Both the position numbers and the translations under genes were made by a program. The notes beneath the pieces were generated by a model. The model worked only from the letters and a program-made list of their open reading frames with translations. It did no database searches and was not told the origin of the DNA. 64,000 nt of DNA. Origin: an uncultured Pelagibacteraceae bacterium. GTDB lineage: Bacteria; Pseudomonadota; Alphaproteobacteria; Pelagibacterales; Pelagibacteraceae. Position 1 is the first letter of the stretch; the number at the start of each line of letters is the position of its first letter. The stretch spans positions 1 to 64,000 of the forward strand of contig CACHWQ010000006.1 of assembly GCA_902583645.1 (NCBI GenBank), in the 5' to 3' direction. Of this stretch, positions 34,484 to 57,039 are shown in pieces.

Positions 34484-34488
34484 TTTAA

Positions 34489-40926: not shown

Positions 40927-41297
40927 TTTAGATCTCCATCCTCTCGCATTTTAGCTCTAATTTTTGTTGCAGATATTTTTTGTATTTCTTCAGGCAAAAC
41001 CACTTCTTCTATTTTATACCCTACACCTCTGCCGTAACAGATATTAGTTATATTGGGTACCAATATTACTTTAAATCTTCCTTCAAACTCAGGATTTAAT
41101 CTCTCCTCTATTTTTTTCTTAACTGTTTCGAAATCAAAAGGATTGTCGTCTACCCCCTGTACATCTCTTATCTGAATACAAACTTGTCCTGTTTTTTTAA
41201 TTATTTCTTTAAATAAAGCGTAGTGGCCGTCATGAAATGGCTGCCATCTTCCTAGCATTTGTGCAGTTGGTTTTTTATTGTCCCACTTATAACTCAT
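40923..41297 (-). CDS. Cytidylyltransferase/adenylyltransferase-like protein
   Basis: A 124-residue nucleotidyltransferase of the HxGH superfamily. The two signature motifs are present: GRWQPFHDGHYALFKEI near residues 17-33 and ISATKIRAKM near 107-116. Such proteins transfer AMP or CMP to phosphate-containing acceptors. The substrate is unknown. It is the first gene of the minus-strand run 41297-36739 and overlaps the PhyH-like oxygenase gene as ATGA. Confidence 0.85.
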   Translation of the reverse strand: MSYKWDNKKPTAQMLGRWQPFHDGHYALFKEIIKKTGQVCIQIRDVQGVDDNPFDFETVKKKIEERLNPEFEGRFKVILVPNITNICYGRGVGYKIEEVVLPEEIQKISATKIRAKMREDGDLK

Positions 41298-41337: not shown

Positions 41338-43497
41338 TTAAAAGACTTTATTTAGTTCAATATAAACTTCTCTTGCATCGCCTATATTTGTTAAATCATC
41401 GTTCAAATTAAATATTAAATCAAATCCTTTTATATCTTTTTTAACCTCAAGTTTTGACATTAAATTTTCTGAACCATTTAATGTAAAAGCATATTCGGTG
41501 TCTTTACTTGGTAAATAACCCACTGCTATATATAGATTGTCTGTATGTCCGTAATCAATTGCTTGGTCTCTTTCATATATTATAAAAATACTATAATTTT
41601 CAGGAAAAACGATATCTATGCCTAATTCACCGCTAATGTTATGTAAAGCTCCCACGTACAATGTATCTGAAAAAGTTTCTGATCCTCCTTTATATTTATA
41701 TTTAAAATCAGATGATCGATCTATATCGGCCCGATATTCGATTTTTCCATGGCGTTTTATTGTATACTTATCATTTGATATATCTTCGACCACCGCAAGA
41801 GCTGCTCTTAGATTTTTGGTTCTGACATGCTGTTTCTCAACACTAATTCCACCAACACCAACTTCTGTATAGTCATCAAGTAAAGTGTGACCGATATCAA
41901 ATCGTCCAGATGGGATTAATGTAAATTTATCTCCCTTTATTTCATCTTTAATTTTTATTGTTCCAAATATTTGGTCACCTCTTCGATTAGCAGTCAATGC
42001 ATTACCATCTAATACCGTCAGTATATCGGAGTGAAATCTGCCAACACCAATTATGGTATCAACAAATTTTTCATTATCCTTCATTGGAGATGTTCTGTAA
42101 TACGTAAGGTTATAACTATCAGCATCTACTTTGCTACCCATATTGCCAACATCAACATTATTTCTTCCAACACTAAATGCTAAACCTCTTAAGGCTTTAT
42201 TATCTATAAATCTATCAGCTCCAACTGTTATTCTGTTGGTGTTAATTTCTTTAGTGGAGGAAATACTAGTATCTCCTACCCGGCCAATAGCGATACTTCC
42301 CTCGCTCCAATAAAATATATCTCTATTCTCATCTTTATCCTTTTTTTTCTTTTTTGCAGCAGAGGTTCGAGCAACCTCGGTTAAAGAAGCAAGTCTTTGA
42401 TTGTTAAAATTAAAATCAATATTTAAATTAGTTAAATTTTGTTTATCTTTATTTCTTCTAATCCACCTCAATCTATTTAAAGCGGTATCGGTTGATTGAT
42501 CAATCGTTCTTTTTGCAATTTCTATTTGAGCCATTGCTATTCCTGTTCTGTCTTTATTTTCTGTTATCGGTGGACATTTGCCAGCAAAAAGATTGAACGG
42601 ACAAGGCAAGTGATGCTCTTTCACCTGATCGTGATCTGTACCTACAATAAACATTTTTAACCCAGATGGACTAAAGGCTATACCGTTGGGGTTACTACTT
42701 CTATTCACACCACCATCAAAAGAAGCTGTCGAAATGTTAAAACCCTCAGATAAAGTATATTGATTAACATCATTACCTAGTGTTCCTATCAAAAACATCC
42801 TTGTACCATCCTGATTGAAAGCCATTCCATACGGTTCCCTCTCACTTGCACCTGTATCATGTAGAGCCTCCAAATCAGCAGATCTAATAAAATTAGCTCC
42901 ACCCGAAAAATCAAAACTTATATTCAATGAATATTGATGCACACTTTCACTTGAACCTCCACCACCTCTACCATCAGTAACATACATCATTGTTCCATCA
43001 TTATTAAAAGCTAGACCAAATAAATTTTTAAGAATTTTCGCTGAAACATCAATAGAATTACCGGTATGGGTTGCTGATGACACATCGAAATTTATAGAAA
43101 GCGAATATTCATATACTTTATCATTTTGTCTTCCAGCAATAAACATTTTTGATCCATCATTGTTAAACTTAAGACTCATTGGATTTATATCTTCAGTGGC
43201 GACTGAAAAGCTATCAATAAAAACAGCTGTCGATACGTTAAATGCTGTTGATAGAGTATATTCATTTACATCTCGACCAGCTTCTCCGACAACAAACATT
43301 TTTTTTCCATCATTACTAAATGCAACATCTCTGGGAAGACCTTCTTCACTTGAAACATCAAATGTTCGTATTTCATAATTAGAAGTAGAGAGAGTGTCGC
43401 CGCTTGCTATAAAATTAGCATACGCGTTTTGAACAAAAATATTAGATATTGGTAATAATATAAAAAATACAAATAGGATTTTTTTTATTAAAGACAT
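41338..43497 (-). CDS. Autotransporter-like outer membrane protein with beta-propeller passenger
   Basis: A 719-residue secreted protein. A signal peptide (core ILFVFFILLPISNIFVQNAYA) precedes five or six imperfect repeats of about 50 residues, each with a block such as AFSNDGKKMFVVG and an EYTLSTAFNVSTA block, over residues 35-300: a predicted beta-propeller. A linker with a Lys-rich patch (KKKKKDKDE) leads to a C-terminal region of about 300 residues with alternating beta strands, ending in the aromatic residue Phe (ELNKVF), as outer-membrane barrels do. It is paralogous to the neighbour at 43565 and probably displays the propeller on the cell surface. The ligand is unknown. Confidence 0.8.
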   Translation of the reverse strand: MSLIKKILFVFFILLPISNIFVQNAYANFIASGDTLSTSNYEIRTFDVSSEEGLPRDVAFSNDGKKMFVVGEAGRDVNEYTLSTAFNVSTAVFIDSFSVATEDINPMSLKFNNDGSKMFIAGRQNDKVYEYSLSINFDVSSATHTGNSIDVSAKILKNLFGLAFNNDGTMMYVTDGRGGGGSSESVHQYSLNISFDFSGGANFIRSADLEALHDTGASEREPYGMAFNQDGTRMFLIGTLGNDVNQYTLSEGFNISTASFDGGVNRSSNPNGIAFSPSGLKMFIVGTDHDQVKEHHLPCPFNLFAGKCPPITENKDRTGIAMAQIEIAKRTIDQSTDTALNRLRWIRRNKDKQNLTNLNIDFNFNNQRLASLTEVARTSAAKKKKKDKDENRDIFYWSEGSIAIGRVGDTSISSTKEINTNRITVGADRFIDNKALRGLAFSVGRNNVDVGNMGSKVDADSYNLTYYRTSPMKDNEKFVDTIIGVGRFHSDILTVLDGNALTANRRGDQIFGTIKIKDEIKGDKFTLIPSGRFDIGHTLLDDYTEVGVGGISVEKQHVRTKNLRAALAVVEDISNDKYTIKRHGKIEYRADIDRSSDFKYKYKGGSETFSDTLYVGALHNISGELGIDIVFPENYSIFIIYERDQAIDYGHTDNLYIAVGYLPSKDTEYAFTLNGSENLMSKLEVKKDIKGFDLIFNLNDDLTNIGDAREVYIELNKVF

Positions 43498-43564
43498 CAG
43501 AGTTTTTTATATGAATTATAATTTAATGCAGTATTTAATATACTCAAAAATACTGAAATTTTAT

Positions 43565-45673
43565 CTAATTTATATTCGAAATTTTTAAATAAAGCCCATA
43601 ATCTGGGTTGTCTTTTAAAAAATCATAATGACTATCCAGATTAATTTTGAAACCATTTAACTCTTTGTTATGTGAAAGTTTTGCTGATGTATCTTGAATG
43701 GACATTGCATAGGAGGATTTTTGAGAGCCTCTGTAATCTAAAGCAATATTAAAACTATCATTCTTACTATTTTTAGCCTGATCCCTGGTGTACTTAGTCA
43801 TTAAAGTTAAACCAGTCTCTGACACAAAATCAAATCCAATACCACCTATAAAATTGTGAGTAGAGTTTTCTATACCTTTCAAAGTAAATTCCTCACCATT
43901 AGAAACGTATGAGAATGTCTGTTCTGAGGCTGGACTCATATCGGCATAATATTCAAAATCAAAATATGGAATAAAGGATCCAACTTCAAAATCGTAAGTA
44001 TTATCTAAACTTGTTCCTACAGAAGATGTAAAATTACCAATATATTGATCTTCATATTCTAGATTTAATCCCTCAGATCCTGTTTCTCTATATGCACCTA
44101 AATGTGTTATTCCATAATTAATTTTTAATTTAGGAGTAAAATTTAATCTATTTTTTGAAAATGTATCTCTCAAACTTAAGGATCCGTATAACTGTTCACC
44201 GTATCTACCACCATCTGTTGATTGAGATCCATTATTATTTATTAAATTAGAATTTATAAAACTCATACCTAATAAATGATCTGTAAATCTTTGTTCTCCT
44301 TTTGGCTTGCTTTCATAGAAAGTTAAACTAAAAGAACTCATATCTAAAGCGCTTCCGAGATCGCCAACATCAACATCATCAGTACCAAATCTTAAAGCAA
44401 TACCTCTCATAATATTATCCTCGCCTTTTTTATCTACTCCAAGAGTAATTGCGGAAGTATTAATACTTTTTGATGAAGACTGACTAGTGTCACCCGTGCT
44501 TCCTATGCTGATGGTTCCTTCGCTCCAAAAAGACCAGCTTGAATTATGATAATCTGACTCACTATTACCATCATTGGAAAAATAAAGAGGAATTAAAGTA
44601 CCTGTTAAGGAATTCAAAATTGCATTATTAAACTGAACCTTAATATTTTGATTAGTTAAATTAACTCTTCCGCTATTTCGTCTTAACCATTCCATACGGT
44701 TAATCACTGGGAATGTTGTATGCTGTATGATTTTTTTAGTAGTTTCAGACTGGCTCTCAATAGAAGCAACATCATCTTTGTTTGCCGTTGGATCAATACA
44801 ATTAATCACCCCAAAACCACAACTTAAATTATATTCACTAACAGTTTTGTTATTTGTTTTAAAATCTAAAACAAACATTTTTAAACCATCCGAACTGAAT
44901 GCTATACCTGAAACTTGATCAGCTTCACCTGAAACATCATAACCCCCTTCTTTTTTTACATTAGATAAATCGAATGGTGTACTTAAAGTGAACTCTTGAA
45001 CTTTATCTTTTCCATGTCCTGTTATATACATTTTAGACCCATCAGAACTGAATGCTAATCCCTGTGGATTGCCTTCAAGTTGTGAAAAGGTTTTGTTACT
45101 AGTTCCGGTAGATTGTTTTTCAAAAGTAGCGTTTGAAATATTAAAAGGACTATTCAGTGAATATTGTTTAATAAAGTCATTCCCAGTTCCATCATAGACA
45201 AATAATTTTGTTCCACTATTGTTAAATGCAATATCTCTTATGGACATCTCTCCCTCAAAGTGTGTAGTCACAAAGTCACAAGATGAGACATCATAAGCAG
45301 TATTTAAATTAAACTCTTCTATTCCTTCTGCTTCAGAATCTGAACCGATGAGAAACATTTTAGTTCCGTCTGAATTTAATTTTAAACCGATTACATCTTC
45401 ATCTTGTTCTGAATGGGGACATTCGTTAGAATTTCTTGTAGCTGTTGAAACGTCAAAACCTACAGTTAAATCAAATTCATAAACTTTATTTTGACTTGAG
45501 CCAGAGATGAACATTTTGGTTCCATTTGTGTTAAATGCTATCCCATGTGCAATTCTTTGAGTAATATCTTTACTGTCAACAAATTCGCTAACACCTGCAA
45601 AAGCAATTGATTTTGGTAAAATAAGAATAATTAAAGTAATTATCTTTAAAAATTTTTTTAATAAAGCTGTCAT
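43565..45673 (-). CDS. Paralogous autotransporter-like protein with beta-propeller passenger
   Basis: A 702-residue paralog of the preceding entry: signal peptide (core FLKIITLIILILPKSIAFA), repeats such as GIAFNTNGTKMFISG and EFDLTVGFDVSTATR over residues 35-290, a shared hinge (RMEWLRRNSGRVNLTNQNI here, RLRWIRRNKDKQNLTNLNI there) and a barrel-like C-terminal region with FWSEGTISIGSTGDTSQSS. Unlike its partner it ends in Asn (KISNIN), not an aromatic residue, so barrel insertion may differ. The two genes are in tandem with 67 bases between, consistent with duplication. Confidence 0.8.
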   Translation of the reverse strand: MTALLKKFLKIITLIILILPKSIAFAGVSEFVDSKDITQRIAHGIAFNTNGTKMFISGSSQNKVYEFDLTVGFDVSTATRNSNECPHSEQDEDVIGLKLNSDGTKMFLIGSDSEAEGIEEFNLNTAYDVSSCDFVTTHFEGEMSIRDIAFNNSGTKLFVYDGTGNDFIKQYSLNSPFNISNATFEKQSTGTSNKTFSQLEGNPQGLAFSSDGSKMYITGHGKDKVQEFTLSTPFDLSNVKKEGGYDVSGEADQVSGIAFSSDGLKMFVLDFKTNNKTVSEYNLSCGFGVINCIDPTANKDDVASIESQSETTKKIIQHTTFPVINRMEWLRRNSGRVNLTNQNIKVQFNNAILNSLTGTLIPLYFSNDGNSESDYHNSSWSFWSEGTISIGSTGDTSQSSSKSINTSAITLGVDKKGEDNIMRGIALRFGTDDVDVGDLGSALDMSSFSLTFYESKPKGEQRFTDHLLGMSFINSNLINNNGSQSTDGGRYGEQLYGSLSLRDTFSKNRLNFTPKLKINYGITHLGAYRETGSEGLNLEYEDQYIGNFTSSVGTSLDNTYDFEVGSFIPYFDFEYYADMSPASEQTFSYVSNGEEFTLKGIENSTHNFIGGIGFDFVSETGLTLMTKYTRDQAKNSKNDSFNIALDYRGSQKSSYAMSIQDTSAKLSHNKELNGFKINLDSHYDFLKDNPDYGLYLKISNIN

Positions 45674-45769: not shown

Positions 45770-46180
45770 CTATTTTTTTAAATCTTCATATATCTTGAGT
45801 GCCCATTTTTTGGCGTTTTGTGAGGTCACGTGAAAATCAAATTTATCAGGTTTAACAAACATTTTATTAGTGTCATCAAATCTACCCTCTTTTATCGTAT
45901 CAACCCAAACCAAATAATCTGCTGGAAATAAGCTTCTTGCTTCAGGTGTTGGGCAAATGAAATCAGCTACAACATAATTTCCTTCCTCTTTAAGTTTCAA
46001 AGCTAAGTCTGCCATTCTCTTTGCTTGTCTTTTTCTACCCTCTTCAGAAAAATCCCAATCATTTGCAGCTTTTCTTACTTCATCAGCATTTAATCTTTTT
46101 GCATTAATCATTGGTGCAAGTTCATTTGCTAAAGTTGTTTTACCTGCACCAGGTAATCCCATAACTAAAATTATTTTCAT
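45770..46180 (-). CDS. Small P-loop kinase, adenylylsulfate kinase-like
   Basis: A 136-residue P-loop protein: Walker A in MGLPGAGKTTLANEL near residues 6-20, LNADEVRKAANDWDFSEEGRKRQAKRMADLA, YVVADFICPTPEARSLF and a short C-terminus with DTNKMFVKPDKFDFHV. The order of blocks resembles APS kinase (CysC), but it is shorter, and the substrate could be another small molecule. Its start touches the stop of the M24 peptidase gene at 46180, and it ends the operon from 52672. Confidence 0.75.
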   Translation of the reverse strand: MKIILVMGLPGAGKTTLANELAPMINAKRLNADEVRKAANDWDFSEEGRKRQAKRMADLALKLKEEGNYVVADFICPTPEARSLFPADYLVWVDTIKEGRFDDTNKMFVKPDKFDFHVTSQNAKKWALKIYEDLKK

Positions 46181-47415
46181 TATATTTTTTCTAAAGGATG
46201 ATGAGACATTAGCTCAAGTCCAATTTGTCCAACTAAATATTGTTGTTCTAATTTAACTCCTTCTTTGCCGCCAACTTTACCAATATAACTTTCAACGGTT
46301 AAAGTCATATTTTGTTCAAAACTTCCACCTTGTTCGCCACCATCAGTTGGATATTTAATCTGAGGCCACTCATCACAAAGACCAATTCCATGAACCATAC
46401 ACGAGTAACGGTTGCCATAATATTCCTCAGGTAATAACCAGGACTTTTGAATAAATTCTTTAAAAGTCATTCCAGGTTTAATTAATCTTGCATTATAATC
46501 TATTTGTTCTACTGCCATAGAATAAAGTTTTTTTTGTTGATCATTAAATTTATGACCTACAACATAAGATCTTGAAATGTCTGCGCAATATCCATAAGGA
46601 CCAACCATATCAGTGTCAAAGGCAACTATCTCTCCGGTTTGCATAACCTTATTGCTACTTTCTTGCATCCATGGATTTGTTCTTTCCCCAGATGAAAGTA
46701 TTCTACATTCAATCCATTCTCCTCCATGCTCAATATTCGTTTTATGCAATATAGACCAAAGCTCATCCTCAGTCATACCTGCCTTTAGTTCTTCTCGCAT
46801 TTTTGAAACACCTATATCAGCAACCTCTAAGGCAGCTTTCATACATGTAAGTTCTTCGGAAGATTTAATAACTCTCGCTTGCTCTAATATTAATTTTGCA
46901 TCAACAACCTCAATACCGTTTTTATTAAGCTCAGATACAGCTGGACCGTTTAATACATCAATTGCAACCCTTTTACTCTTAAAAAAATTATTTGATAAGT
47001 CTTTTATTTCATTAATCCATTTTTTTAATTGTGAACTTGCTTGATTACCGTTACTAAAATAATCCCACGTTATGGCTGGTCTAATTTCATCAATCAAATT
47101 TAAGTGCTTCGATAAGATTTCACAATTGAAATATTCATATAAAATTGTTGGTCCATCGACAGGCACGAAACAATATCTTGTTAAATTATGCATATTATAA
47201 ACACTCATGTTAACAGTGTCTAAGGCATACCTAACATTGACTGGATCAAAAAGTATGCATGCCTCTAAATTATTTTTTTGTAATTCCTTTCTTACTCTAT
47301 CCAACCTGTATGATCTTAATTTATCAAAGTTAATCTCATCCTCTTTTAATCTTTTTTTTGTTAAAAATTTTGGAGGTGTTTTAATTTCTGGTGCAATTTT
47401 TCTACTAAATTTCAT
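46180..47415 (-). CDS. M24 family metallopeptidase (Xaa-Pro dipeptidase/creatinase-like)
   Basis: A 411-residue pita-bread protein with an N-terminal creatinase-like domain and a C-terminal M24 domain. Metal ligands are visible: Asp in IVAFDTDMVGPYGYCADISRSYVVG, His in CMVHGIGLCDEWPQI, Glu in TLTVESYIG and Glu in VKLEQQYLV. The family includes Xaa-Pro peptidases, creatinase and ectoine hydrolase. Its place beside a Rieske oxygenase and betaine-type dehydrogenase hints at hydrolysis of an N-methylated or amide osmolyte, which is inference. Confidence 0.88.
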   Translation of the reverse strand: MKFSRKIAPEIKTPPKFLTKKRLKEDEINFDKLRSYRLDRVRKELQKNNLEACILFDPVNVRYALDTVNMSVYNMHNLTRYCFVPVDGPTILYEYFNCEILSKHLNLIDEIRPAITWDYFSNGNQASSQLKKWINEIKDLSNNFFKSKRVAIDVLNGPAVSELNKNGIEVVDAKLILEQARVIKSSEELTCMKAALEVADIGVSKMREELKAGMTEDELWSILHKTNIEHGGEWIECRILSSGERTNPWMQESSNKVMQTGEIVAFDTDMVGPYGYCADISRSYVVGHKFNDQQKKLYSMAVEQIDYNARLIKPGMTFKEFIQKSWLLPEEYYGNRYSCMVHGIGLCDEWPQIKYPTDGGEQGGSFEQNMTLTVESYIGKVGGKEGVKLEQQYLVGQIGLELMSHHPLEKI

Positions 47416-47416
47416 T

Positions 47417-48592
47417 TTAAATTAAATTTTGAGCTACCCATTTATGAAAATGATGAGTTGGATTATCCATTACAGGTGAAAAGTTTCCTCCATTATAGGA
47501 TGGGGAGTTTCTTCCATTTTGCATACCTTGTATTATATCAACATCTTCTTTTTGAATATCTTCCCATTGTTTGTGATTTTGTTTTCTTATTAATTTGAAT
47601 TTGTTAGCTTGTGCTGCTTGTTCACCCACATAATAAAGCTCCATATGTTCGAGAGTAAACTCATGGTTAATCGGTTCTATCCAATAGGCATAATAATGAT
47701 CTTTATGAATTCCAAGCATAACATTTGGAAACAGTGCTACGTATTCTGCAATATTTTCTTTATCCTTTGGCCAATTTGGAAAACTTGGAAGTTTTTCTTT
47801 TCCTTTAAATTGGGGATTATAAACAACTGTGCCTTGACCAGCAAAGCGATTAGGTAAACCTTGAATATGATAATGGTCCTCTATTTTTGAGTAGGAATTT
47901 AATCCTGGATGAACCCATGGAAGATGATAACTTTCACAATAGTTTTCAATTGCAAATTTCCAATTACATTTTGCATTTAATTTGAAATATCCAAAATCAT
48001 TTGAGTGATGAATTAATTCTCTATCTTTTATTGGCCAAAATTTTTCCCATCTATCACTTAAGGGTTTTATATATTCTTCAAAAGACATCTCATTTCGATT
48101 AATGTTTATCATTATCAAATCTAACCAAATATAAGATCTAATTTCTTTGAGATTACTTTTTGATTTATCAAAACCTTCTGCAGAATGTTTGTTCATGCCA
48201 CCAATATGAGGTGTTGCCATTAGTTCTCCATCAAGATCATAAGACCAAGAATGATATGGACATCGAATAAGGCTATTAATTTTCCCACTTTTAGAGACTA
48301 ATTTTACTCCTCTGTGACTACAAACATTGTGAAAAACTTTAATTTCATTCTGTTTATTTCTTAAAATTAAAATTGGCATTCCAAGAATATCTATTGGTTT
48401 TACATCTCCAATTTCTGGTATGGAGCTTGCAACTCCAACTACAATCCACTTATCTTCAAATAATTTTTTTCTCTCTATTAAAGTATAATCTTTGCTAGTG
48501 TAGCATTCGTTTGGTAATCCGTGAGCTTTTTCAATCGAATTATTTACAACATCTAGTTTTTTTTTGTCTATAATATTATAAATTTCAGACAT
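47417..48592 (-). CDS. Rieske non-haem iron oxygenase alpha subunit, quaternary-ammonium type
   Basis: A 391-residue ring-hydroxylating-type oxygenase. Rieske cluster ligands are Cys91, His93, Cys111 and His114. The mononuclear iron site is ENYCESYHLPWVHPGL, with His223 and His228 and a Glu (220) where aromatic-ring enzymes have a bridging Asp. The same Glu occurs in carnitine, glycine betaine and stachydrine oxygenases, so an N-methylated ammonium compound is a likely substrate. No reductase gene is nearby. It sits one base from the M24 gene and 3 bases from a methyltransferase gene. Confidence 0.85.
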   Translation of the reverse strand: MSEIYNIIDKKKLDVVNNSIEKAHGLPNECYTSKDYTLIERKKLFEDKWIVVGVASSIPEIGDVKPIDILGMPILILRNKQNEIKVFHNVCSHRGVKLVSKSGKINSLIRCPYHSWSYDLDGELMATPHIGGMNKHSAEGFDKSKSNLKEIRSYIWLDLIMININRNEMSFEEYIKPLSDRWEKFWPIKDRELIHHSNDFGYFKLNAKCNWKFAIENYCESYHLPWVHPGLNSYSKIEDHYHIQGLPNRFAGQGTVVYNPQFKGKEKLPSFPNWPKDKENIAEYVALFPNVMLGIHKDHYYAYWIEPINHEFTLEHMELYYVGEQAAQANKFKLIRKQNHKQWEDIQKEDVDIIQGMQNGRNSPSYNGGNFSPVMDNPTHHFHKWVAQNLI

Positions 48593-48595
48593 AAC

Positions 48596-49225
48596 TTATT
48601 TTATCACTTCATATAACCCAAGCCAAGCGTTCACATCTTTACTTGCAATATAGTCAGATTTAAAAAATTCAATTTTTTTCCATTTATTTTCATTATTTAA
48701 TTGTTCAATTTTTTTATCAAAACCATACTCTTCGTGTATTCCTTCATTTATTGTAAAACAAACATGTCCTTTATTTTTGGTGATTCTTATAAATTCATCT
48801 AAAGCAGGTGGTTTAACGTGTCCAAATGTAAAAGTTCCAACACACATTACGGCATCAAAAATATCATTTTCTTCGTCTATAGGTTTATTTAAATCGACTT
48901 GATCAAGTTTTTTGTAAAGTTGAGAAGGTACCAAATCTAAAAGTTTTTTTGAAAGGTCTGCACCATAAAAATTATGATACCCAAATTTTTTTAATTCAAC
49001 ACCAACTAATCCTGTGCCACATCCAGCATCATAAATTTTAGCATCTTTGTTTTTTTGATATTTAATAAATGTTTCGGTAGTTTCTTTTGGACCAGTATAG
49101 TTCCAATCAAGCATGTCCTTATCATATTTATTTTCTTGTCCCCAATCGTCATAATACTTCATTACCTCATCGGTTTTTTTTAATTTATATATTGGTATTT
49201 TGTTTCCTACATCTTTTTGTGACAT
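48596..49225 (-). CDS. Class I SAM-dependent methyltransferase
   Basis: A 209-residue methyltransferase: the SAM loop IYDAGCGTGLVGVELKKFG near residue 60, then FYGADLSKKLLDLV, FDAVMCVGTFTFGHVKPPALDEFIRITKNKGHVCFTINEG. An N-terminal segment (VMKYYDDWGQENKYDKDMLDWNY) is typical of small-molecule methyltransferases. The substrate is unknown. It overlaps the neighbouring dehydrogenase stop at 49225. In an operon otherwise devoted to removing methyl groups, its direction of methyl transfer is puzzling. Confidence 0.88.
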   Translation of the reverse strand: MSQKDVGNKIPIYKLKKTDEVMKYYDDWGQENKYDKDMLDWNYTGPKETTETFIKYQKNKDAKIYDAGCGTGLVGVELKKFGYHNFYGADLSKKLLDLVPSQLYKKLDQVDLNKPIDEENDIFDAVMCVGTFTFGHVKPPALDEFIRITKNKGHVCFTINEGIHEEYGFDKKIEQLNNENKWKKIEFFKSDYIASKDVNAWLGLYEVIK

Positions 49226-51630
49226 TAGCTTCTCATCTTTTGTCCAGTTGGATCGTAAAGTGGAGATTTTATTATTGAAGAGTTAAACAAATCTCCATTT
49301 ATTTCCACTTGAATTCCTTTCTCTGAACTTATCTCTCCACTATCAAGATATGAAAAAGCAACACTTTTATTTGTAAAATGCGCAAAACCTCCCGAAGTAA
49401 CGTATCCAATTGCTTTTCCATTTTTTAGCACTGCTTCATTATTTGTTACATCAATATCATTTGTTTCAACAATCAATGGTGTAAGTTTATTTTTACTTTC
49501 ATCTTTTTTTGCAAAATTTTTTCCTACAAAATCTTTATCCCAATCAATGAATACATCCAATCCTGTCTCTTTTGCAGTAAAGTCTGGTCTATAATCAAGT
49601 GTCCAAGCACCCCAATTTTTTTCAAGACGCATAGACATTAACGCTCTTAAACCAAAAGGTTGAATATTAAATTCTTTTCCAGCCTCCATCAATTCTTCGT
49701 ATAATTTAATTTGAAAATGCGGTGCAGTGTAAATTTCAAATCCTAATTCTCCAGTAAAAGATAATCGATTTACAATTGCTGGAACTCCACCAACAAACAT
49801 CCTTCTAGAATCTCTAAATTTAAAATTTTTATTTGATACATCTTCCCTTACTATTCTTTGAAAAACTTCTCTTGATTTAGGTCCTGATATTGCTAAACCA
49901 TGATAATCATCAGATCGATTTTTGTAGTTTACTTTAAATTTATTCAAATGACTCTCAAACCATCTTCGGTGCATTTCTTGTGCAGCACCAGAACCAAAAA
50001 CCATAAATTTATTTTCATCAACACATGATACTGTAAGATCTCCATAAAGTTTACCTCTATAAGTAAGCATTGGAGTTAGTGAAATTCGTCCTGGTTGAGG
50101 GATTTTACCAGCCATAACATAATTTAAAAACTTTCTAGCATCTGGACCTTCAAATTCATGTTTCGAAAAATTTGCAAGTTCCATTACACCTACATTTTCT
50201 CTAACATTTATAACTTCTTTTGATACATAATTATGAGATCTTGATCTTTTTATTGTTGGTTCCTCAAAAGCATCTTCTTTATTTTTTGCAAACCAAAGAA
50301 CACTCTCTAAACCAAATCCATCACCCATTACCGCACCTTGATTTATAAAGCGATCATATAATGCAGTTGTTTTTTGTTTTCTTCCTTTAGGTAAAGTTTC
50401 ATTTGGAAATGTCATTATAAATCTTCTCTCGTAATTTTCAGATGATTTAATAGTTCCATACTGTGGAGTAGCATACTCACCAAACCTTGCTACATCCATT
50501 GCCCAAACATCAATGGACGGTTCTCCATCTATTATCCATTCAGCTATACATTTTCCAACACCACCACCCTGACAAAAACCCGCCATAACACCTACTGCAA
50601 CCCAATAATTTTTCATGCCAGGAACCGGACCAATAAGTGGACTACCATCTGGACCAAAAGTAAAAGGTCCATTAACGATATTTTTAATTCCCGCTTTTTC
50701 TAATGCTGGCATTCTTTCAAATCCTATTGCTAACCTATCTTGAATGTTATCTAACTTTGGTTCTAATAATTCGTGTCCAAAGTTCATTGGAGTTCCATTT
50801 ATTTTCCATGGTGTTGACTTTGGTTCATATGTGCCAAGCAACATTCCTTTACCTTCTTGTCTAAAATAAATATTTCCTTCAAAATCTGTACCAATTGGTA
50901 ACCTTTGATCTCCCATCGCTTCAATTTCTGGAATACTTTCAGTAATTAAATAATGATGCTCCATTGGTTGAACTGGAAGATCTACTCCAGAAAGATTTCC
51001 TACTTCTCTCGCCCATAAGCCACCTGCATTTATAATAATTTCAGCATTTATATTTCCTTTATCAGTAAAAACATCCCAGGAGCCATCCGATTTTTGTTTA
51101 GTATCTTTTACAACTGTGTGTGTATAATATTTTCCACCATGAACTTTAGCAGCTTTTGCGAATGCGTATGTTACTCCTGACGGATCAACTTCGCCGTCTA
51201 TAGGATCCCATAAAGCTAATAGATATCTTTTTGGATCAATTAAAGGATGTTTTTTCTTTACTTCATCAAGAGAGATGAATTCTTGATCTAAACCCATATA
51301 TCTAGCTTTTGATCTTTCCCTTTTTAAATATTCAGCCCAAACCTCGTTTGATGCTAAATAAAATCCTCCGCTTGGTTTAAAACCAACTGAATGACCAGAT
51401 TCTTTTTCTATCTCTTTATATAGTCCTATTGTATAGGCCATCATTCTAGAAATGTTTGGATCAGAAGAAATTACGTGCACATTCCCAGCAGCATGCCATG
51501 AAGATCCAGAAGTAAGTTCATTTCTTTCAAGTAGAATACAATCTTTTAAGCCGAACTTTGATAAGTGATAAAGAATTGAACAACCTACTACACCACCACC
51601 AATTATTACTACTTTTGCACTATTTTCCAT
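49225..51630 (-). CDS. Sarcosine/dimethylglycine dehydrogenase-type flavoprotein (DAO + GcvT domains)
   Basis: An 801-residue paralog of the protein at 5095-7527. It has the FAD loop GGGVVGCSILYHLS near residue 10, the SGSSWHAAGNVH motif with the His used for covalent FAD, FAD-domain motifs to about residue 400 and a folate-binding GcvT half with LGFEIYTAPHFQI and FGLRALMSMRLEK. It may demethylate sarcosine or dimethylglycine, or another N-methyl product of the adjacent Rieske oxygenase. It follows BHMT by one base. Electrons probably go to the ETF encoded at 3393-5095. Confidence 0.83.
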   Translation of the reverse strand: MENSAKVVIIGGGVVGCSILYHLSKFGLKDCILLERNELTSGSSWHAAGNVHVISSDPNISRMMAYTIGLYKEIEKESGHSVGFKPSGGFYLASNEVWAEYLKRERSKARYMGLDQEFISLDEVKKKHPLIDPKRYLLALWDPIDGEVDPSGVTYAFAKAAKVHGGKYYTHTVVKDTKQKSDGSWDVFTDKGNINAEIIINAGGLWAREVGNLSGVDLPVQPMEHHYLITESIPEIEAMGDQRLPIGTDFEGNIYFRQEGKGMLLGTYEPKSTPWKINGTPMNFGHELLEPKLDNIQDRLAIGFERMPALEKAGIKNIVNGPFTFGPDGSPLIGPVPGMKNYWVAVGVMAGFCQGGGVGKCIAEWIIDGEPSIDVWAMDVARFGEYATPQYGTIKSSENYERRFIMTFPNETLPKGRKQKTTALYDRFINQGAVMGDGFGLESVLWFAKNKEDAFEEPTIKRSRSHNYVSKEVINVRENVGVMELANFSKHEFEGPDARKFLNYVMAGKIPQPGRISLTPMLTYRGKLYGDLTVSCVDENKFMVFGSGAAQEMHRRWFESHLNKFKVNYKNRSDDYHGLAISGPKSREVFQRIVREDVSNKNFKFRDSRRMFVGGVPAIVNRLSFTGELGFEIYTAPHFQIKLYEELMEAGKEFNIQPFGLRALMSMRLEKNWGAWTLDYRPDFTAKETGLDVFIDWDKDFVGKNFAKKDESKNKLTPLIVETNDIDVTNNEAVLKNGKAIGYVTSGGFAHFTNKSVAFSYLDSGEISSEKGIQVEINGDLFNSSIIKSPLYDPTGQKMRS

Positions 51631-51631
51631 T

Positions 51632-52672
51632 TTAATATTTTATTTCTTTGTTTACTTTCTTCAATGTCTTGTCTGTCCCATGGTGAAAATGTTTGCTCAT
51701 ATCAGGCATGTACTTCATAGCAATCGGTTTTTTTCCAACTGCAACTGCCATTTCTCTCACATGGTGAGCTTCTGCACCACAACATATACCGATTAAATTA
51801 ATTTTTTCTTTTAGACATTCTTTTGCAAATTCAGCCATTTCAAATCTGTTGCAAAATAAATTGTCTAGAGCTACTGGGAATGCATTTCCACCAGGAATAC
51901 AATCGCATCCATGATCAGTCTGATTTAAAAATCCTGGCTCCTTTTCTGTTGTTCTATATGGAACAGGTAAACCTGCAACGTGACATGAAACTTTTTTTCT
52001 AACTTCTTTTAAAAGTTTCATTGTCATTTTAGGACCTCTGTAACAATTTAGACCAACGACATCTGCTCCAAGATCCTCTACTATTTTACATGCATCCTCA
52101 GCTGTATGTCCATCTCTTGTTAAATCTCCTCGAGGTATCGCATAATTAGCTACAGCAATAAAACCTTCATCCTTAATTGCTTTTAAAGCTATTTTCATTT
52201 CATCTACCCAGTTTATTGTCTCAGCAACTATAAAATCAACACCCGCTTCCTTTGCCCACAAAACTTGTTCTTCATACATCTTTTGACATTCTTTAAATGA
52301 GTTTTTATCCTTAGGATCAAAAATATTTGTATTCGCAACATCTCCGCAAACCATTAAATCTAAATCTTTAAATTCATTTGCTGCATCTTTTGCAATTTTA
52401 AGAGCATTTTTTTGCATCTTCTCAAGTAAATGTTCTTTTCCAATAATTCTTAATTTTTCTCTGTGTCCATAATAAGTGAAAGCCTGAACAATATCTGATC
52501 CAGCTCTTATGAATTCTCTGTGTAACTGTGTCACTACATCAGGATGCTCTAGTACTACCTCTGGTACAAATGGCCCAGCTGAAAGATATCCTCTTCTTTC
52601 CATAGCAAACAAATATCCTTCGGCGAATATAACTGGACCTTCATCTAATCTTGACAATAAGTTTTTTTTCAT
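51632..52672 (-). CDS. bhmT: Betaine-homocysteine S-methyltransferase
   Basis: A 346-residue barrel enzyme that moves a methyl group from glycine betaine to homocysteine, giving methionine and dimethylglycine. Blocks include GPVIFAEGYLFAMERRGYL near 12-30 and AGSDIVQAFTYYGHREKL. The three zinc-binding Cys are present at 210 (GLNCYRGP) and 297-298 (GICCGAEAHH). It heads the minus-strand operon to 45770. Its ribosome binding site and start codon form one arm of a pseudoknot at 52672-52725 that looks like a SAM-V riboswitch, so methionine supply probably controls it. Confidence 0.9.
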   Translation of the reverse strand: MKKNLLSRLDEGPVIFAEGYLFAMERRGYLSAGPFVPEVVLEHPDVVTQLHREFIRAGSDIVQAFTYYGHREKLRIIGKEHLLEKMQKNALKIAKDAANEFKDLDLMVCGDVANTNIFDPKDKNSFKECQKMYEEQVLWAKEAGVDFIVAETINWVDEMKIALKAIKDEGFIAVANYAIPRGDLTRDGHTAEDACKIVEDLGADVVGLNCYRGPKMTMKLLKEVRKKVSCHVAGLPVPYRTTEKEPGFLNQTDHGCDCIPGGNAFPVALDNLFCNRFEMAEFAKECLKEKINLIGICCGAEAHHVREMAVAVGKKPIAMKYMPDMSKHFHHGTDKTLKKVNKEIKY

Positions 52673-52945: not shown

Positions 52946-53956
52946 ATGAAAATAAAGAAAATAATTCTTTCTCTAATTGTTGCATTTGGTTTAACTTCTT
53001 TTAGTGGGATAGCTAATGCTGCATGTGGAAAGATTTCTATTGCAAATATGAACTGGGCTTCAGCAAACTTTATGGCTGAAGTTGACAAGATCATACTTGA
53101 AAAAGGTTATGGATGTGAAGTTGAACTTGTTCCAGGTGCAACAATGCCAACTTTTACGTCTATGCAAGAAAAAGGTGAGCCAGATTTAGCTCCTGAGTTT
53201 TGGGCTAACGCTGCAATTGTTGAATTAGAAGCTGCTGTAGCTGAAGGAAAACTTCATTCTATAAATAAAGCTCCTATAACTGGTTTAGGTGAAGGATGGT
53301 GGGTATTACCTGCAACTTTAGAAAAACATCCAGAGCTTACAACTGCAGACGCAATTTTGAAAAGACCTGATCTTTTTCCTCATCCTGAAGATCCATCAAA
53401 AGGCGGATTTCATATCTGTCCTCCAGGTTGGAACTGTGAACTAAGTAACAGAAATCACTTCAGAGCATGGGAGATGGAGAAAAAAGGATGGAAAATTGTA
53501 GAAACTGGATCTGCTGCAGGTTTAGATGGTTCAATAGCTAAAGCTGCTGAAAGAGGAGAAAACTGGTTTGGTTACTATTGGTCACCAACTGCTTTAATCG
53601 GAAAATATAATATGCAAGCTGTAGATATGGGTGAGTTCGCTGGAAAAGATAACTGGGATAACTGCTTATCAAAACCAGAGCAAGAATGTGCAAACCCTAA
53701 AAAATCATCTTGGGTTAAATCAGAAGTTTTCACAGTCGCTACAGACAATTATAAAAAAACAGCTGGAAAAGATGGTATGAAATATCTTGAAAAAAGAACA
53801 TATCCAGGACCAGTTATGAATGGAATGTTAGTTTGGATGGGTGAAAACCAAGCTGAAGGTGCCGATGCTGCAATAGAGTTCCTTAAAACTCAAGAAGACG
53901 TTTGGTCTAAATGGGTATCTGGAAAAGCTAAAAAAGCAATAAAAGCATCACTATAA
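52946..53956 (+). CDS. proX: Glycine betaine/choline-type ABC transporter substrate-binding protein
   Basis: A 336-residue periplasmic OpuAC-type binding protein: signal peptide core IILSLIVAFGLTSFSGIANA, then ISIANMNWASANFMAEVDKI, VPGATMPTFTSMQEKGEPDLAPEFW, CPPGWNCELSNRNHF and WFGYYWSPTALIGKYN. It is a divergent relative of the protein at 26599, with a different ligand loop (PGATMPTF rather than PSGTGLW), so its preferred ligand may differ. It is followed by a 13-base-pair hairpin and the permease gene, but the operon has no ATPase gene. Confidence 0.92.
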   Translation: MKIKKIILSLIVAFGLTSFSGIANAACGKISIANMNWASANFMAEVDKIILEKGYGCEVELVPGATMPTFTSMQEKGEPDLAPEFWANAAIVELEAAVAEGKLHSINKAPITGLGEGWWVLPATLEKHPELTTADAILKRPDLFPHPEDPSKGGFHICPPGWNCELSNRNHFRAWEMEKKGWKIVETGSAAGLDGSIAKAAERGENWFGYYWSPTALIGKYNMQAVDMGEFAGKDNWDNCLSKPEQECANPKKSSWVKSEVFTVATDNYKKTAGKDGMKYLEKRTYPGPVMNGMLVWMGENQAEGADAAIEFLKTQEDVWSKWVSGKAKKAIKASL

Positions 53957-53968
53957 ATAATATATATT

Positions 53969-54001
53969 ATCTGAACCCGTTAAATTATAACGGGTTCAGA
54001 T
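53969..54001 (+). terminator. Strong hairpin between binding protein and permease genes
   Basis: A perfect 13-base stem, ATCTGAACCCGTT (53969-53981) with AACGGGTTCAGAT (53989-54001), around a 7-base loop, then TTAAATTTT. The tail is only partly T-rich, and the permease ATG follows at 54011. It probably acts as a leaky terminator or protects the 3' end of the binding protein message, giving more binding protein than permease. Confidence 0.65.
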
Positions 54002-54010
54002 TTAAATTTT

Positions 54011-54898
54011 ATGGATTTCTTAAATAAAATTCCCGAAATGGATCGGACAGCTTTAAGAGAATTAAAGAAAGGGATAGATTTAAGTTTTAAAGATTTTTCA
54101 AGAGCATATGGAGATGCAATAGAGGGTTTTTTTGATCCTCTTTTATACTTTTTAATTTGGTTAGAAAAATTGTTAGTAACTAGTCCATGGCCACTTGTTA
54201 TTGGAGTTTTTGGTATATTAGCATGGATTGGTTCTCGTAGTATTAAGCTAGTAATTGGTACTATGATTTGTTTTCTTGTAATAGGATATTTTGGAATGTG
54301 GAAAAATTGTATGGCAACAGTCGCAATTATTTCGGTTTCAACTTTAGTCTGTATTGTGGTCGGAATACCAATAGGAGTTTTAATGTCAAAATCTAATAGA
54401 GCTGAGAAAGCAATTTTACCAATTTTAGACATGATGCAAACAATTCCAAGTTTTGTTTATTTAATTCCTATAATAATGTTGCTGGGGATTGGAAAGGTTC
54501 CAGGCTTATTAGCAGTTTGTATCTATGCTCTTCCTCCAATAGTTAGACTTACCAATTTAGGAATTCGTGAGGTCGACAAGGAGACTTTAGAGGCAAGTGA
54601 GGCTTTTGGAGCTACTCCTTTCCAAAAACTGACATCAGTTCAAATTCCACTATCGCTTCCTACGATATTCGCTGGTATAAACCAAACGATAATGATGGCT
54701 TTAGCAATGGTTGTAATAGCTTCAATGATTGGTGTAAAAGGCCTTGGAATTCCTATTCTTCAATCTATTTCTAATCAATACTTAGCCCTTGGAATGATGA
54801 ATGGTCTTGCAATTGTGGCTTTGGCAATAATTTTTGACAGGGTAACTCAAATGTACGGACAAAGAATCCAAAAACACAGAGGTCAAAATAAAAAATAA
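54011..54898 (+). CDS. proW: Betaine-type ABC transporter permease (single domain)
   Basis: A 295-residue ProW-like permease with about seven transmembrane segments and one permease domain: MMQTIPSFVYLIPIIMLLGIG near 138, PPIVRLTNLGIREVDKETLEASEAFGATPFQKLTSVQIP as the EAA loop region, and GINQTIMMALAMVVIASMIG. The N-terminal 50 residues are hydrophilic. It should dimerise, unlike the fused permease at 24373. Its ATPase is not encoded nearby; the orphan ATPase at 11156 is a candidate. Confidence 0.92.
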   Translation: MDFLNKIPEMDRTALRELKKGIDLSFKDFSRAYGDAIEGFFDPLLYFLIWLEKLLVTSPWPLVIGVFGILAWIGSRSIKLVIGTMICFLVIGYFGMWKNCMATVAIISVSTLVCIVVGIPIGVLMSKSNRAEKAILPILDMMQTIPSFVYLIPIIMLLGIGKVPGLLAVCIYALPPIVRLTNLGIREVDKETLEASEAFGATPFQKLTSVQIPLSLPTIFAGINQTIMMALAMVVIASMIGVKGLGIPILQSISNQYLALGMMNGLAIVALAIIFDRVTQMYGQRIQKHRGQNKK

Positions 54899-54940
54899 GC
54901 TGTTTCAATTTGATCTTAAATTTTTATAGACAGCTTTTGT
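54897..54940 (+). terminator. Possible terminator after the permease gene
   Basis: AAGCTGT (54897-54903) and ACAGCTT (54930-54936) can pair around a long AT-rich loop, followed by TTGT. The stem overlaps the proW stop codon. The loop of 26 bases and short T run make it a weak terminator at best. Confidence 0.4.
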
Positions 54941-54962
54941 AAAATAAATAAATATCCTCTTA

Positions 54963-55691
54963 ATGAATTTTTCTTTAGAAATTAGTCCAAAAACTGACTT
55001 AGAAACATTGCCTTCTCTAAAAGATGTTTATATTACAATGCTTCCTGGCGGGGACTATAAAGATACTGCAAAACAATCAGTAAACTTAGTTAAAAATGGT
55101 TACAATCCAATACCCCACTTCCCGGCCAGATCAATTAAGGACGAAACACAACTTAAAGACTACATTTCAATTTGTAAAGACGGAGGTGTAAAACAAGCAC
55201 TTATTATAGGAGGAAGTAGAGAGCCTATTGGTAAATTTGACAGCTCAATTCAGCTTCTTGAAACCGGTTATTTTGAGAAGATGAAGATAGGAATTGCTGG
55301 ACATCCGGAGGGGAGTCCTGATATATCGGATTCTAAATTGGAAAAAGCAATGGAAGATAAAAAGCCTTACGCTGATTATATAGTCACACAATGGTTGATG
55401 GATCCTCAGCTAATAATTGACTTTATATCAAAACAATCAGTACCAGTTCATGTAGGAATTACTGGGCCACTTAAAATAACAAGCTTGATCAAATTTGCTA
55501 ATATTGTTGGTGCAAAAAATTCCATAAATTTTCTTAAATCTAACTTTAGTAAGGCATTAGATTTAATGAAACCTAAAGACCCTAATGAATTAATTGGGAA
55601 ATTAAAAATGCATACTGATTTTTTTCACATTTATACATTCGGCGGCTTGAAGGAAACAAACAAGTGGTTGGAGGAAAATAAATATGTCTAA
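54963..55691 (+). CDS. Methylenetetrahydrofolate reductase (MetF)-like protein
   Basis: A 242-residue protein resembling the MetF barrel but shorter than ordinary MetF (about 290-300 residues). Features are LEISPKTD near the start, YITMLPGGDYKDTAKQSVNLVKNGYNPIPHFPARSIKD, ALIIGGSREPIGKF, GIAGHPEGSPDI with YADYIVTQWLMD, and VPVHVGITGPLKI. It may reduce or oxidise the one-carbon unit on folate. It overlaps the DmdA-like gene at 55684 by 8 bases, so the two probably act together on methyl-folate made from the imported osmolyte. Confidence 0.8.
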   Translation: MNFSLEISPKTDLETLPSLKDVYITMLPGGDYKDTAKQSVNLVKNGYNPIPHFPARSIKDETQLKDYISICKDGGVKQALIIGGSREPIGKFDSSIQLLETGYFEKMKIGIAGHPEGSPDISDSKLEKAMEDKKPYADYIVTQWLMDPQLIIDFISKQSVPVHVGITGPLKITSLIKFANIVGAKNSINFLKSNFSKALDLMKPKDPNELIGKLKMHTDFFHIYTFGGLKETNKWLEENKYV

Positions 55692-57039
55692 AGAATTTGA
55701 TTATTCAAAAATGAAACATGCAACATCTGTAAATCAATCAGATCGTCAGGTACCTTATAATTTAAGACAAAGTGGTCCAACAAAAGTTGAGTTACTAATT
55801 TCAACACGAGTTAGAAAATCACCTTATTGGCATTTGTCAATGAGAGCAGGTTGTTGGAGAGCGACAGTATACAATCGTATTTATCATCCAAGAGGATATG
55901 TAAGAGGAAAAAATGGTGCGATGGTAGAATATAATTCAATTAAAAATGATGTAACAATGTGGAATGTTGCAGTAGAAAGACAAATAAGAGTAAAGGGACG
56001 TGACGCTGAAAAATTTGTTAATTATGTAATTACAAGAGATGCTACTAAAATCTCACCAATGCGTGCAAGATACGTAATCTTGTGTAACTATAAAGGTGGT
56101 GTTTTAAATGACCCAATACTTTTAAGAATATCTAAAGACGAATTTTGGTTTAGTTTATCAGACAGTGATATCGGACTTTATTTGCAAGGAGTAAATGCAA
56201 ACAAAAAGTTTAAATGTGAAATTGATGAAATAGACTCTTGTCCTGTTCAAATACAAGGGCCAAAAGCATTGGCGTTAATGAAAGATCTTATAGGGAGACA
56301 AGTTAAATTAGATAATATGCCATACTACGGTTTAGCTAAAGCGAAAGTTGGTGGTAGACCATGCATAATTTCTCAAACTGGTTTTTCAGGTGAAGCTGGA
56401 TATGAAATATATTTATATAATGCAACTAAGTATGCTGATGATATGTGGAATGCAGTATTAAAAGCGGGTAAAAAACATAAATTAAGAGTTATTGCACCAG
56501 CACACCATAGAAGAATTCAAGCTGGTATTCTCTCATGGGGTCAGGATTTAGATCATGAGCATAATCCTTTTCAATGTAATCTTGGATATCAAGTATCATT
56601 ATCTGGTAAGGGAGAATGGAAGAAAAAAGCAAATTATGTTGGAAAAGATGCGCTTGAAAAAATGGGAAAAAAATTAAAAGCTGGAAAAAAACCTTATAAA
56701 CTACAGTTAGTCGGTTTAGAATTAGGAGGGAAACCAATTAAAGAATATGCACCAGATTTTTGGTTAATTTCTAAAGCTAGTGGTGGAAAACCAGTCGGAT
56801 TTATTACTTCTCCGTGGTATCATCCTGAAAAAGGAACGAATATTGCAATGGGATATGTTCCATATGATGGTACTAAAAATCATAATGGATTTCCAAAAGG
56901 CAAAGTTGGTTCAAAATATAAAGTACATCTTCCTAAGAAATATTCTATTAAACCAGGTAAACCTGTAGATGCTGTTGTTGTAGATATTCCATTTACAGAC
57001 TCCCATCACGCAAATACTAGAGAAGTAGTAAAAGGTTAA
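55684..57039 (+). CDS. DmdA/GcvT-like folate-dependent methyltransferase
   Basis: A 451-residue protein of the aminomethyltransferase (GcvT) superfamily closest by eye to DMSP demethylase DmdA: STRVRKSPYWHLSMRAG near residue 41, VTMWNVAVERQIRVKGRDAEKF near 96-118, GGVLNDPILLRISKDEFWFSLSDSDIGLY, VQIQGPKALALM and GFSGEAGYEIYLY. It is longer than DmdA (about 370 residues) with extra N-terminal and C-terminal parts. It probably transfers a methyl group from an imported compound to tetrahydrofolate. DMSP, betaine or another substrate are all open. It is paired with a MetF-like gene in a transporter operon. Confidence 0.78.
   Translation: MSKEFDYSKMKHATSVNQSDRQVPYNLRQSGPTKVELLISTRVRKSPYWHLSMRAGCWRATVYNRIYHPRGYVRGKNGAMVEYNSIKNDVTMWNVAVERQIRVKGRDAEKFVNYVITRDATKISPMRARYVILCNYKGGVLNDPILLRISKDEFWFSLSDSDIGLYLQGVNANKKFKCEIDEIDSCPVQIQGPKALALMKDLIGRQVKLDNMPYYGLAKAKVGGRPCIISQTGFSGEAGYEIYLYNATKYADDMWNAVLKAGKKHKLRVIAPAHHRRIQAGILSWGQDLDHEHNPFQCNLGYQVSLSGKGEWKKKANYVGKDALEKMGKKLKAGKKPYKLQLVGLELGGKPIKEYAPDFWLISKASGGKPVGFITSPWYHPEKGTNIAMGYVPYDGTKNHNGFPKGKVGSKYKVHLPKKYSIKPGKPVDAVVVDIPFTDSHHANTREVVKG

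Follow-up and report, generated by a model that had tools for sequence, protein, structure and literature searches.

Bacteria of the SAR11 group are among the most abundant in the ocean and are major consumers of dimethylsulfoniopropionate (DMSP) and betaine in surface seawater. A betaine route has been predicted for SAR11 with SAR11_1173 as bhmT and SAR11_1253 as dmgdh; in the same work the DmdA-like aminomethyltransferase SAR11_1265, which adjoins metF (SAR11_1264), was left without a substrate, with a second step of DMSP demethylation offered as a speculation (PMC3160333). SAR11 Bhmt is reported to resemble human Bhmt more closely than the homologue from S. meliloti does (PMC12478193), and bhmT of strain HTCC1062 carries SAM-II/SAM-V riboswitches (PMC5069961). 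Here we describe a locus in a 64,000-nucleotide stretch, called the window below, from an uncultured Pelagibacteraceae bacterium (assembly GCA_902583645.1, contig CACHWQ010000006.1, positions 1 to 64,000; 1.06 Mb in 39 contigs, 82% complete). It resembles the predicted route in its BHMT and DMGDH functions and in having a DmdA-like aminomethyltransferase beside an MTHFR gene, but differs in that BHMT and DMGDH are joined in a single operon with a Rieske oxygenase (RSK) and an M24-fold metalloenzyme (PMC3160333). No description of a Rieske-DddP-BHMT operon in SAR11 was found among the matches listed in literature searches, which left subscription papers mostly outside.

The open reading frame list gives an operon of six minus-strand genes, running from 52672 down to 45770 in the order BHMT, DMGDH-like flavoprotein, methyltransferase, RSK, M24 protein and kinase-like protein; neighbouring genes share 1 base or are separated by 1-3 bases. 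The first-pass annotation of this DNA had these six tightly packed genes exactly placed, but described the operon alone and omitted a divergent plus-strand operon (52946-57039) which begins 273 bases beyond it and belongs to its setting. Gene order, protein families, conserved catalytic residues and conservation of the set can be read directly from the sequences. We favour the reading, to which we give about an even chance, that the locus would serve SAR11 to import and demethylate methylated onium zwitterions of the DMSP/glycine-betaine class as one module, and the cassette probably breaks down both sulfonium and ammonium osmolytes. The evidence consists of the tight packing, the relation of the M24 protein to DddP, the DmpX-like binding protein and the DmdA-like gene of the divergent operon, together with the full gene set at all 21 BHMT loci and the neighbourhoods in three other genomes (G061, G466 and G179), as detailed below.

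The M24 protein (46180..47415, minus strand) scores 344 bits with the NCBIfam DddP model (cut-off 600) and 273 bits with the solved DddP structure 4rzy, versus 78 bits for the next family, a peptidase model, and 76 bits for the best non-DddP structure. By these scores it is a member of the DddP (DMSP lyase) family, and the creatinase-like or M24 peptidase label, of which the former had been given at first, was discarded. Likewise, the protein had been said to have no obvious place in betaine breakdown; its family, and the DmpX-like, permease, MTHFR-like and DmdA-like genes of the operon 273 bases off, provide one. In a 54-row alignment (48 rows different) the six metal ligands and the position of Tyr366 are invariant and the position of Asp377 is kept in 53 of 54 rows, the window protein having all of them. 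Tyr366 and Asp377 are invariant putative catalytic residues of DddP (PMC4108388), and deposited DddP chains altered at Tyr366 and Asp377 were found among the structure matches. The protein thus shares fold family, metal ligands and both of these positions with the DddP DMSP lyase, but differs from it in its score and in the position of Trp95: the SAR11 copies, two copies from family f32 and the copy of locus L117 form a clade (9 rows, 100/100) with Tyr or Phe there, and Trp95 is also absent in three further rows. We take Trp95 to contact the substrate in DddP. Proteins exceeding the cut-off of 600 occur in G061 (788 bits) and Oceanisphaera (627 bits). A structure model of the M24 protein (mean pLDDT 61) was too poor for a fold search.

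RSK (47417..48592, minus strand) has Rieske and Ring_hydroxyl_A domains and intact metal sites, with Cys91, His93, Cys111 and His114 at the Rieske site, His223, His228 and Asp350 at the iron site, and Glu220 as the bridge. The CESYH motif with Glu in place of the bridging Asp, already pointed out in the first-pass annotation, is indeed there (C219-E220-S221-Y222-H223), and E220 aligns to the bridging Glu of CntA, E205 (PMC7948474). This carnitine monooxygenase is also the top solved-structure match (124 bits). Tyr218 of RSK aligns to CntA Tyr203, the pi-cation residue of group Va (PMC7948474). Of 42 orthologue rows, 37 have Tyr at this position and 5 have Phe; the rows comprise SAR11 sequences, the copy on a Phaeobacter plasmid and sequences from 27 class loci with 42-50% identity. 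All 42 rows carry the motif WK[FL]xxEN[YF]CE[SA]YHLPxxH, which was seen in none of 15 other Rieske rows, the search pattern having missed the site in benA and in two distant paralogues among them. A Cys pair by the iron (Cys-X-X-Cys) is unique to some group V enzymes (PMC10952381); it is not present in RSK, where the alignment places Ser221 and Leu224 at those positions. The top NCBIfam model is GbcA, with 128 bits over residues 19-235, below the cut-off of 670.

A Rieske tree was calculated with 46 of 57 rows after removal of 11 near-duplicate or off-target rows; it is midpoint-rooted, has flagged long branches and includes CntA and Stc2 as fragments. The RSK family forms a single clade of 35 rows, one distant paralogue included (support 100/98), apart from the aromatic-ring enzymes antA and benA. 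Its join to CntA is weak (82/48). Rieske proteins from the M24 loci of Rhizobium and Caballeronia group with Stc2 (98/95), not with the RSK clade. Similar to the group V enzymes CntA, Stc2 and GbcA, RSK has a bridging Glu and a 2-His-1-Asp site and stands apart from antA and benA, and it shares with CntA the Tyr at the pi-cation position; unlike them, it has its own motif EN[YF]CE[SA]YHLP, no Cys pair and a GbcA score far below the cut-off. The proposed kinship with carnitine, betaine and stachydrine oxygenases therefore stands as regards the bridging Glu and the distance from the two aromatic-ring enzymes compared, but as judged by sequence RSK is a distinct Rieske family with a clear motif, outside the Stc2 clade. 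Matches to RSK at E 1e-60 are found in 54 of 385 sampled genomes of the class, and those among them with 31-39% identity may be paralogues. The structure model (mean pLDDT 49) was too poor for a fold search.

Unlike the two-component systems of CntA and GbcA, RSK is not accompanied by a FAD_binding_6 reductase: the domain was found in none of 11 genomes searched, 10 of them at least 90% complete, versus 8 of 14 control genomes, and a Phaeobacter reductase used as query gave one weak partial match across 9 genomes. Because the usual reductase was not found, we propose ferredoxin and a thioredoxin-reductase-like flavoprotein as an alternative donor. The gene for such a flavoprotein is located one gene away from RSK in G359 and G130 (family f32), and a relative with 48-53% identity is present in all nine SAR11-order genomes searched; it may be the electron donor of RSK.

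BHMT (51632..52672, minus strand) and the DMGDH-like demethylase with FAD and GcvT domains (49225..51630, minus strand) bear out the earlier assignment to BHMT and a demethylating flavoprotein. The former matches Pfam PF02574 (S-methyl_trans) with 144 bits and human BHMT 1lt7 with 160 bits and is 84-87% identical to relatives from the sister family; the latter matches Pfam DAO, FAO_M, GCV_T and GCV_T_C and, over nearly its full length, human DMGDH 5l46 with 587 bits. For human BHMT we take Cys217, Cys299 and Cys300 to be the zinc ligands and Trp44, Tyr77 and Tyr160 to form the betaine cage; measured by these residues, the window protein keeps the zinc-type cysteines and Tyr77 and has Phe for Trp44 and Thr for Tyr160. 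The altered pocket was dropped as a sign of a different substrate, as a distant paralogue in G012 likewise has Phe44 and Thr160. In contrast to HTCC1062 bhmT with its SAM-II/SAM-V riboswitches (PMC5069961), an Rfam scan of the window from 40 to 60 kb at E 0.5 gave zero matches, and a scan of 7 related loci gave nothing above the gathering score, so that no riboswitch argument can be made here.

Between DMGDH and RSK lies a class I S-adenosylmethionine-dependent methyltransferase gene (48596..49225, minus strand; Methyltransf_11, 39 bits), for which no NCBIfam model scored above its cut-off. The last gene (45770..46180, minus strand), described earlier as APS-kinase-like, encodes a small P-loop kinase-like protein with a partial APS_kinase match of 43 bits (residues 3-83 of 136). 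Of the 45 loci that could be assessed, 34 have it close to RSK, yet it also occurs away from RSK (L117), and its tie to RSK may be positional only. A small nucleotidyltransferase-like protein (window 40923-41297, minus strand) pairs with the kinase-like gene in most loci, also when the latter is away from RSK (L117).

The divergent operon starts with a DmpX/ProX-like substrate-binding protein (52946..53956; OpuAC, 154 bits), followed by a ProW-type ABC permease (54011..54898; ProW, 267 bits, cut-off 439), a short MTHFR-like protein (54963..55691; TIGR00677, 26 bits, cut-off 310, no Pfam match) and a DmdA-like aminomethyltransferase of 451 amino acids (55684..57039), the last two genes sharing an 8-base overlap. 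The sole solved relative of the binding protein at E 1e-5 is 7yle (217 bits, 36% identity). The pocket of DmpX consists of Trp35, Thr64, Trp84, Glu113, Trp152, Ala153, Tyr200 and Trp202 (PMC10030565), and because these eight residues land exactly on the 7yle numbering we take 7yle as the RnDmpX crystal of that paper, which the agreement suggests. Seven of the eight, including Tyr200, are identical in the window protein, and the same seven are kept in all 13 further SAR11 loci read. Thus the binding protein is like DmpX in overall identity and pocket; it is unlike DmpX in having Asn for Ala153, in lacking an adjoining ATPase gene (none is adjacent to the binding protein or permease) and in lying beside onium catabolism genes, whereas dmpXWV is described as not colocalised with known DMSP catabolic genes (PMC10030565).

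For the DmdA-like protein the top structure is the solved DmdA-like 3tfh (150 bits). It falls below the cut-off of the DmdA model (225 versus 410 bits), and the same genome has another protein above it (513 bits). The MTHFR-like protein's score of 26 bits leaves its role resting mainly on gene position, and the role may be as named. Family and gene order, rather than comparison with HTCC1062 sequences, suggest that the pair is the counterpart of SAR11_1264/1265.

Conservation was read from the best 80 of at least 581 relatives, all close to the query and nearly all recorded as Pelagibacteraceae or Candidatus Pelagibacter, most of them single-cell genomes. Forty-five of these named loci had enough flank to be assessed, 35 of the 80 being set aside as too near a contig end; the 45 include many closely related single cells and are not 45 independent events. 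Near RSK, the MTHFR-like and DmdA-like genes are both found in 42 of the 45, the kinase in 34, the methyltransferase in 33, M24 in 28, DMGDH in 22 and a BHMT of the window type in 21. Each of the 21 loci with BHMT has M24, DMGDH and the binding protein as well. In a hand-read count of 61 genomes of the genus, M24 (78-100% identity) occurs in 20, all of which have RSK sequence (a fragment in three); the two genes are within 5 kb of each other on one contig in 19 genomes and on different contigs in G006. The downstream genes are thus conserved together with RSK, a point on which the first-pass annotation had suggested a check. A DmdA-like gene occurs in 84 of 101 relatives. By hand count, 16 of these are genus genomes, mostly incomplete, in which RSK gave no match, and this weakened the candidate functional link between RSK and the DmdA-like pair. 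Because the DmdA-like gene also occurs in such genomes, BHMT/DMGDH, M24, the methyltransferase and EgtB/EgtD look like optional cassettes beside a near-fixed MTHFR-like/DmdA-like pair.

Further cassettes at this site include EgtB plus EgtD, an arginase-family ureohydrolase, an amidinotransferase-like gene and a SET-domain protein. EgtB and EgtD (ergothioneine biosynthesis; representatives above the NCBIfam cut-offs) stand upstream of the methyltransferase and RSK in place of BHMT-DMGDH (L036, L037, L054, L056, L058, L060, L061, L062, L067 and L115). As for a candidate ergothioneine link, M24 is present in none of the seven EgtB loci among the 45. The ureohydrolase gene is inserted in the operon in L033 (8427-9416) and found also in L038, L052 and L065, and the amidinotransferase-like gene, recognised by eye and with weak matches to arginine deiminase and dimethylargininase, is inserted in L034 (10951-12060). 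A guanidino compound may be another cassette substrate. A creatine cycle of amidinotransferase, methyltransferase and M24 was dropped as a candidate, the amidinotransferase-like gene occurring in L034 only and in none of the 80 named loci. In the sister family, a 717-amino-acid protein with two permease domains (shown for L042) is encoded directly upstream of RSK-BHMT-DMGDH (L042, 7513-9666; L043, 10662-12815).

Across the class, 54 of the 385 genomes have RSK, 78 have M24 and 47 have both at the thresholds applied (Fisher 7e-32, from hand-copied lists and ignoring phylogeny and genome size); hand reading placed the two within 12 kb in six of the 47 (G000, G359, G179, G389, G466 and G196). Neighbour tables of high-GC genomes hold spurious open reading frames, which were left uninterpreted. 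In G061, of the sister family, a bona fide DddP gene (788 bits) directly precedes a BHMT gene with 85% identity to that of the window and a DMGDH-like gene (L239, 3070-15472). It is itself preceded by BKACE-like, L-carnitine-dehydrogenase-like and butyrobetaine-dioxygenase-like genes, none of which reaches its NCBIfam cut-off. Close by are a ProX-like gene (48%) in divergent orientation and two further genes, ProW- and ProV-like by eye. RSK of G466 adjoins a permease and a binding protein sharing 58% identity with 7yle, and an M24 homologue is found at a distance of 5.8 kb; RSK of G179 is followed by a DddP-like protein (571 bits). In G359, one of the 1.4 Mb genomes of family f32, genes for RSK, an aldehyde dehydrogenase, a DapA-family protein, a FAD-oxidoreductase and BHMT (71%) are divergent from an unassigned gene and M24; in G130, where these partners are found as well, there are two BHMTs and RSK lies ~19 kb from M24. 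In Rhizobium leguminosarum pSK01 a Stc2-type Rieske gene, a FAD-binding oxidoreductase and M24 are accompanied by genes for a 4-hydroxyproline epimerase (576 bits, cut-off 376) and for an ABC transporter of the betaine/proline type, and Parasedimentitalea holds FAD oxidoreductase, M24, trimethylamine-methyltransferase-family and sarcosine oxidase genes together. All of these neighbourhoods have to do with methylated onium compounds, though not with one same compound.

In the onium module that we favour, the DmpX-like protein and the permease would import the substrate with an ATPase from elsewhere. BHMT would transfer one methyl group to homocysteine to give methionine, and the DMGDH-like enzyme would take a second onto tetrahydrofolate. 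The DddP-like enzyme would cut the carbon-onium bond by metal-assisted base catalysis involving Asp348 and Tyr337, while RSK, with electrons supplied by ferredoxin and the thioredoxin-reductase-like flavoprotein, would oxidise a quaternary ammonium or possibly a sulfonium compound bound through Tyr218. Methyl groups would enter the folate one-carbon pathway by way of the DmdA-like and MTHFR-like proteins, the cassettes being gained and lost beside this stable pair. Such a locus offers testable partners for a type of MTHFR/DmdA-like pair that PMC3160333 left without a substrate, and it shows that in Pelagibacteraceae genes for betaine demethylation can be joined by one for a DddP-like enzyme. 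The RSK family, with its clear motif, may function without a standard reductase in small genomes. A DMSP-like substrate, if true, would mean an extra route in the ocean sulfur cycle, and an N-betaine one in the nitrogen cycle. It would be a long shot that RSK is a new Rieske subgroup, widespread in Alphaproteobacteria, which oxidises sulfonium zwitterions (DMSP or a relative) besides or instead of quaternary amines, with the flavoprotein and ferredoxin as its SAR11 electron route and the M24 clade as a DMSP-analogue lyase.

Several observations weigh against the onium module. The DmdA-like pair is near-universal and often found without RSK, and the pairing may reflect a shared insertion site. 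The pocket comparison with DmpX is not exclusive, since a more distant binding protein of the window (at 26599) has the same Trp/Tyr set. M24 does not reach the DddP cut-off, its clade shows Tyr or Phe in place of Trp95, and its relatives also adjoin hydroxyproline-type and MttB-family genes. Finally, BHMT and DMGDH indicate N-methyl groups and the DddP-like and DmpX-like proteins S-methyl groups, so a single substrate does not fit all parts. A mixed diet of N- and S-methyl compounds is plausible, because a SAR11 betaine transporter that also takes DMSP is cited in PMC10030565.

The assignments of BHMT and DMGDH would suit ordinary glycine-betaine catabolism, as predicted for SAR11 (PMC3160333), in which BHMT is followed by DMGDH, RSK is an extra betaine or choline oxygenase, and M24 and the kinase are bystanders. 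The carnitine-to-betaine type genes ahead of DddP-BHMT in G061, albeit below the NCBIfam cut-offs, and GbcA as best model for RSK agree with this, but RSK reaches 128 of the 670 bits of that cut-off and stands outside the Stc2-like clade, and a bystander M24 would not be expected in all 21 BHMT loci of the 45; we regard this explanation as rather unlikely. Catabolism of proline betaine, the first suggestion of the first-pass annotation, or of hydroxyproline betaine draws indirect support from the hydroxyproline-type genes that adjoin M24 in Rhizobium, where a 4-hydroxyproline epimerase and a Stc2-type Rieske gene are present, and that probably adjoin RSK, BHMT and M24 in G359, where similar FAD-oxidoreductase, DapA-family and aldehyde dehydrogenase genes occur. 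In L116 and L117, moreover, RSK is followed by an old yellow enzyme-type flavoprotein. Against it, the G359 genes score under their NCBIfam cut-offs, its FAD-oxidoreductase has no match in the window genome at E 1e-40 (matches of 29-33% occur in 18 of 101 relatives), and RSK is outside the Stc2 clade and lacks the Stc2 motif ENNRECYHC. Hydroxyproline betaine was weakened as a leading explanation by the unmatched oxidoreductase, and we consider substrates of this kind unlikely. The amide-linked osmolyte suggested alongside proline betaine gained no support.

That RSK is CntA-like and cleaves a C-N bond in carnitine, butyrobetaine, choline or a related compound, yielding an aldehyde for an aldehyde dehydrogenase, has a similarly low probability. 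Tyr218 lies at the pi-cation position with the role described for CntA (PMC7948474), an aldehyde dehydrogenase gene follows RSK in Phaeobacter and G359, and a carnitine-dehydrogenase-like gene is present at 39136-40074 (344 bits, cut-off 414); the window operon, however, has no aldehyde dehydrogenase gene, the tree join of RSK to CntA is weak (82/48, on a long branch) and Phe replaces Tyr in 5 of 42 rows. The genes could also form no pathway at all, having been collected at a hypervariable insertion site, as the strongly varying gene content and cassettes as unlike as EgtB/EgtD, the ureohydrolase and the amidinotransferase-like gene would allow. That the genes overlap, that one full set is common to 21 of 45 loci and that the neighbourhoods of RSK, M24 and the binding protein are met again in other families makes this very doubtful.

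The surroundings of the two operons contain further genes. Immediately downstream of the BHMT-led operon are two large repeat-bearing proteins (719 and 702 amino acids; window 41338-45673, minus strand), surface- or autotransporter-like by eye and found in part of the related loci only. A HalD-like oxygenase (44 bits) and the L-carnitine-dehydrogenase-like protein are encoded nearby (window 39136-40926, minus strand). On the other side are a DUF3726 protein and a 554-amino-acid protein without Pfam or NCBIfam match (window 57770-60042, minus strand); relatives of both occur near RSK on the Phaeobacter plasmid, and one of the latter also near RSK in G466. The cluster at 31030-36736 (plus strand) encodes a luciferase-like monooxygenase, a thiamine diphosphate enzyme, an unassigned protein, an alpha/beta hydrolase and an aldehyde dehydrogenase, and is also found at L197 (4342-10578). 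We take it to resemble trigonelline degradation. Four of its five genes and a flavin-reductase-like gene adjoin the RSK orthologue in G311.

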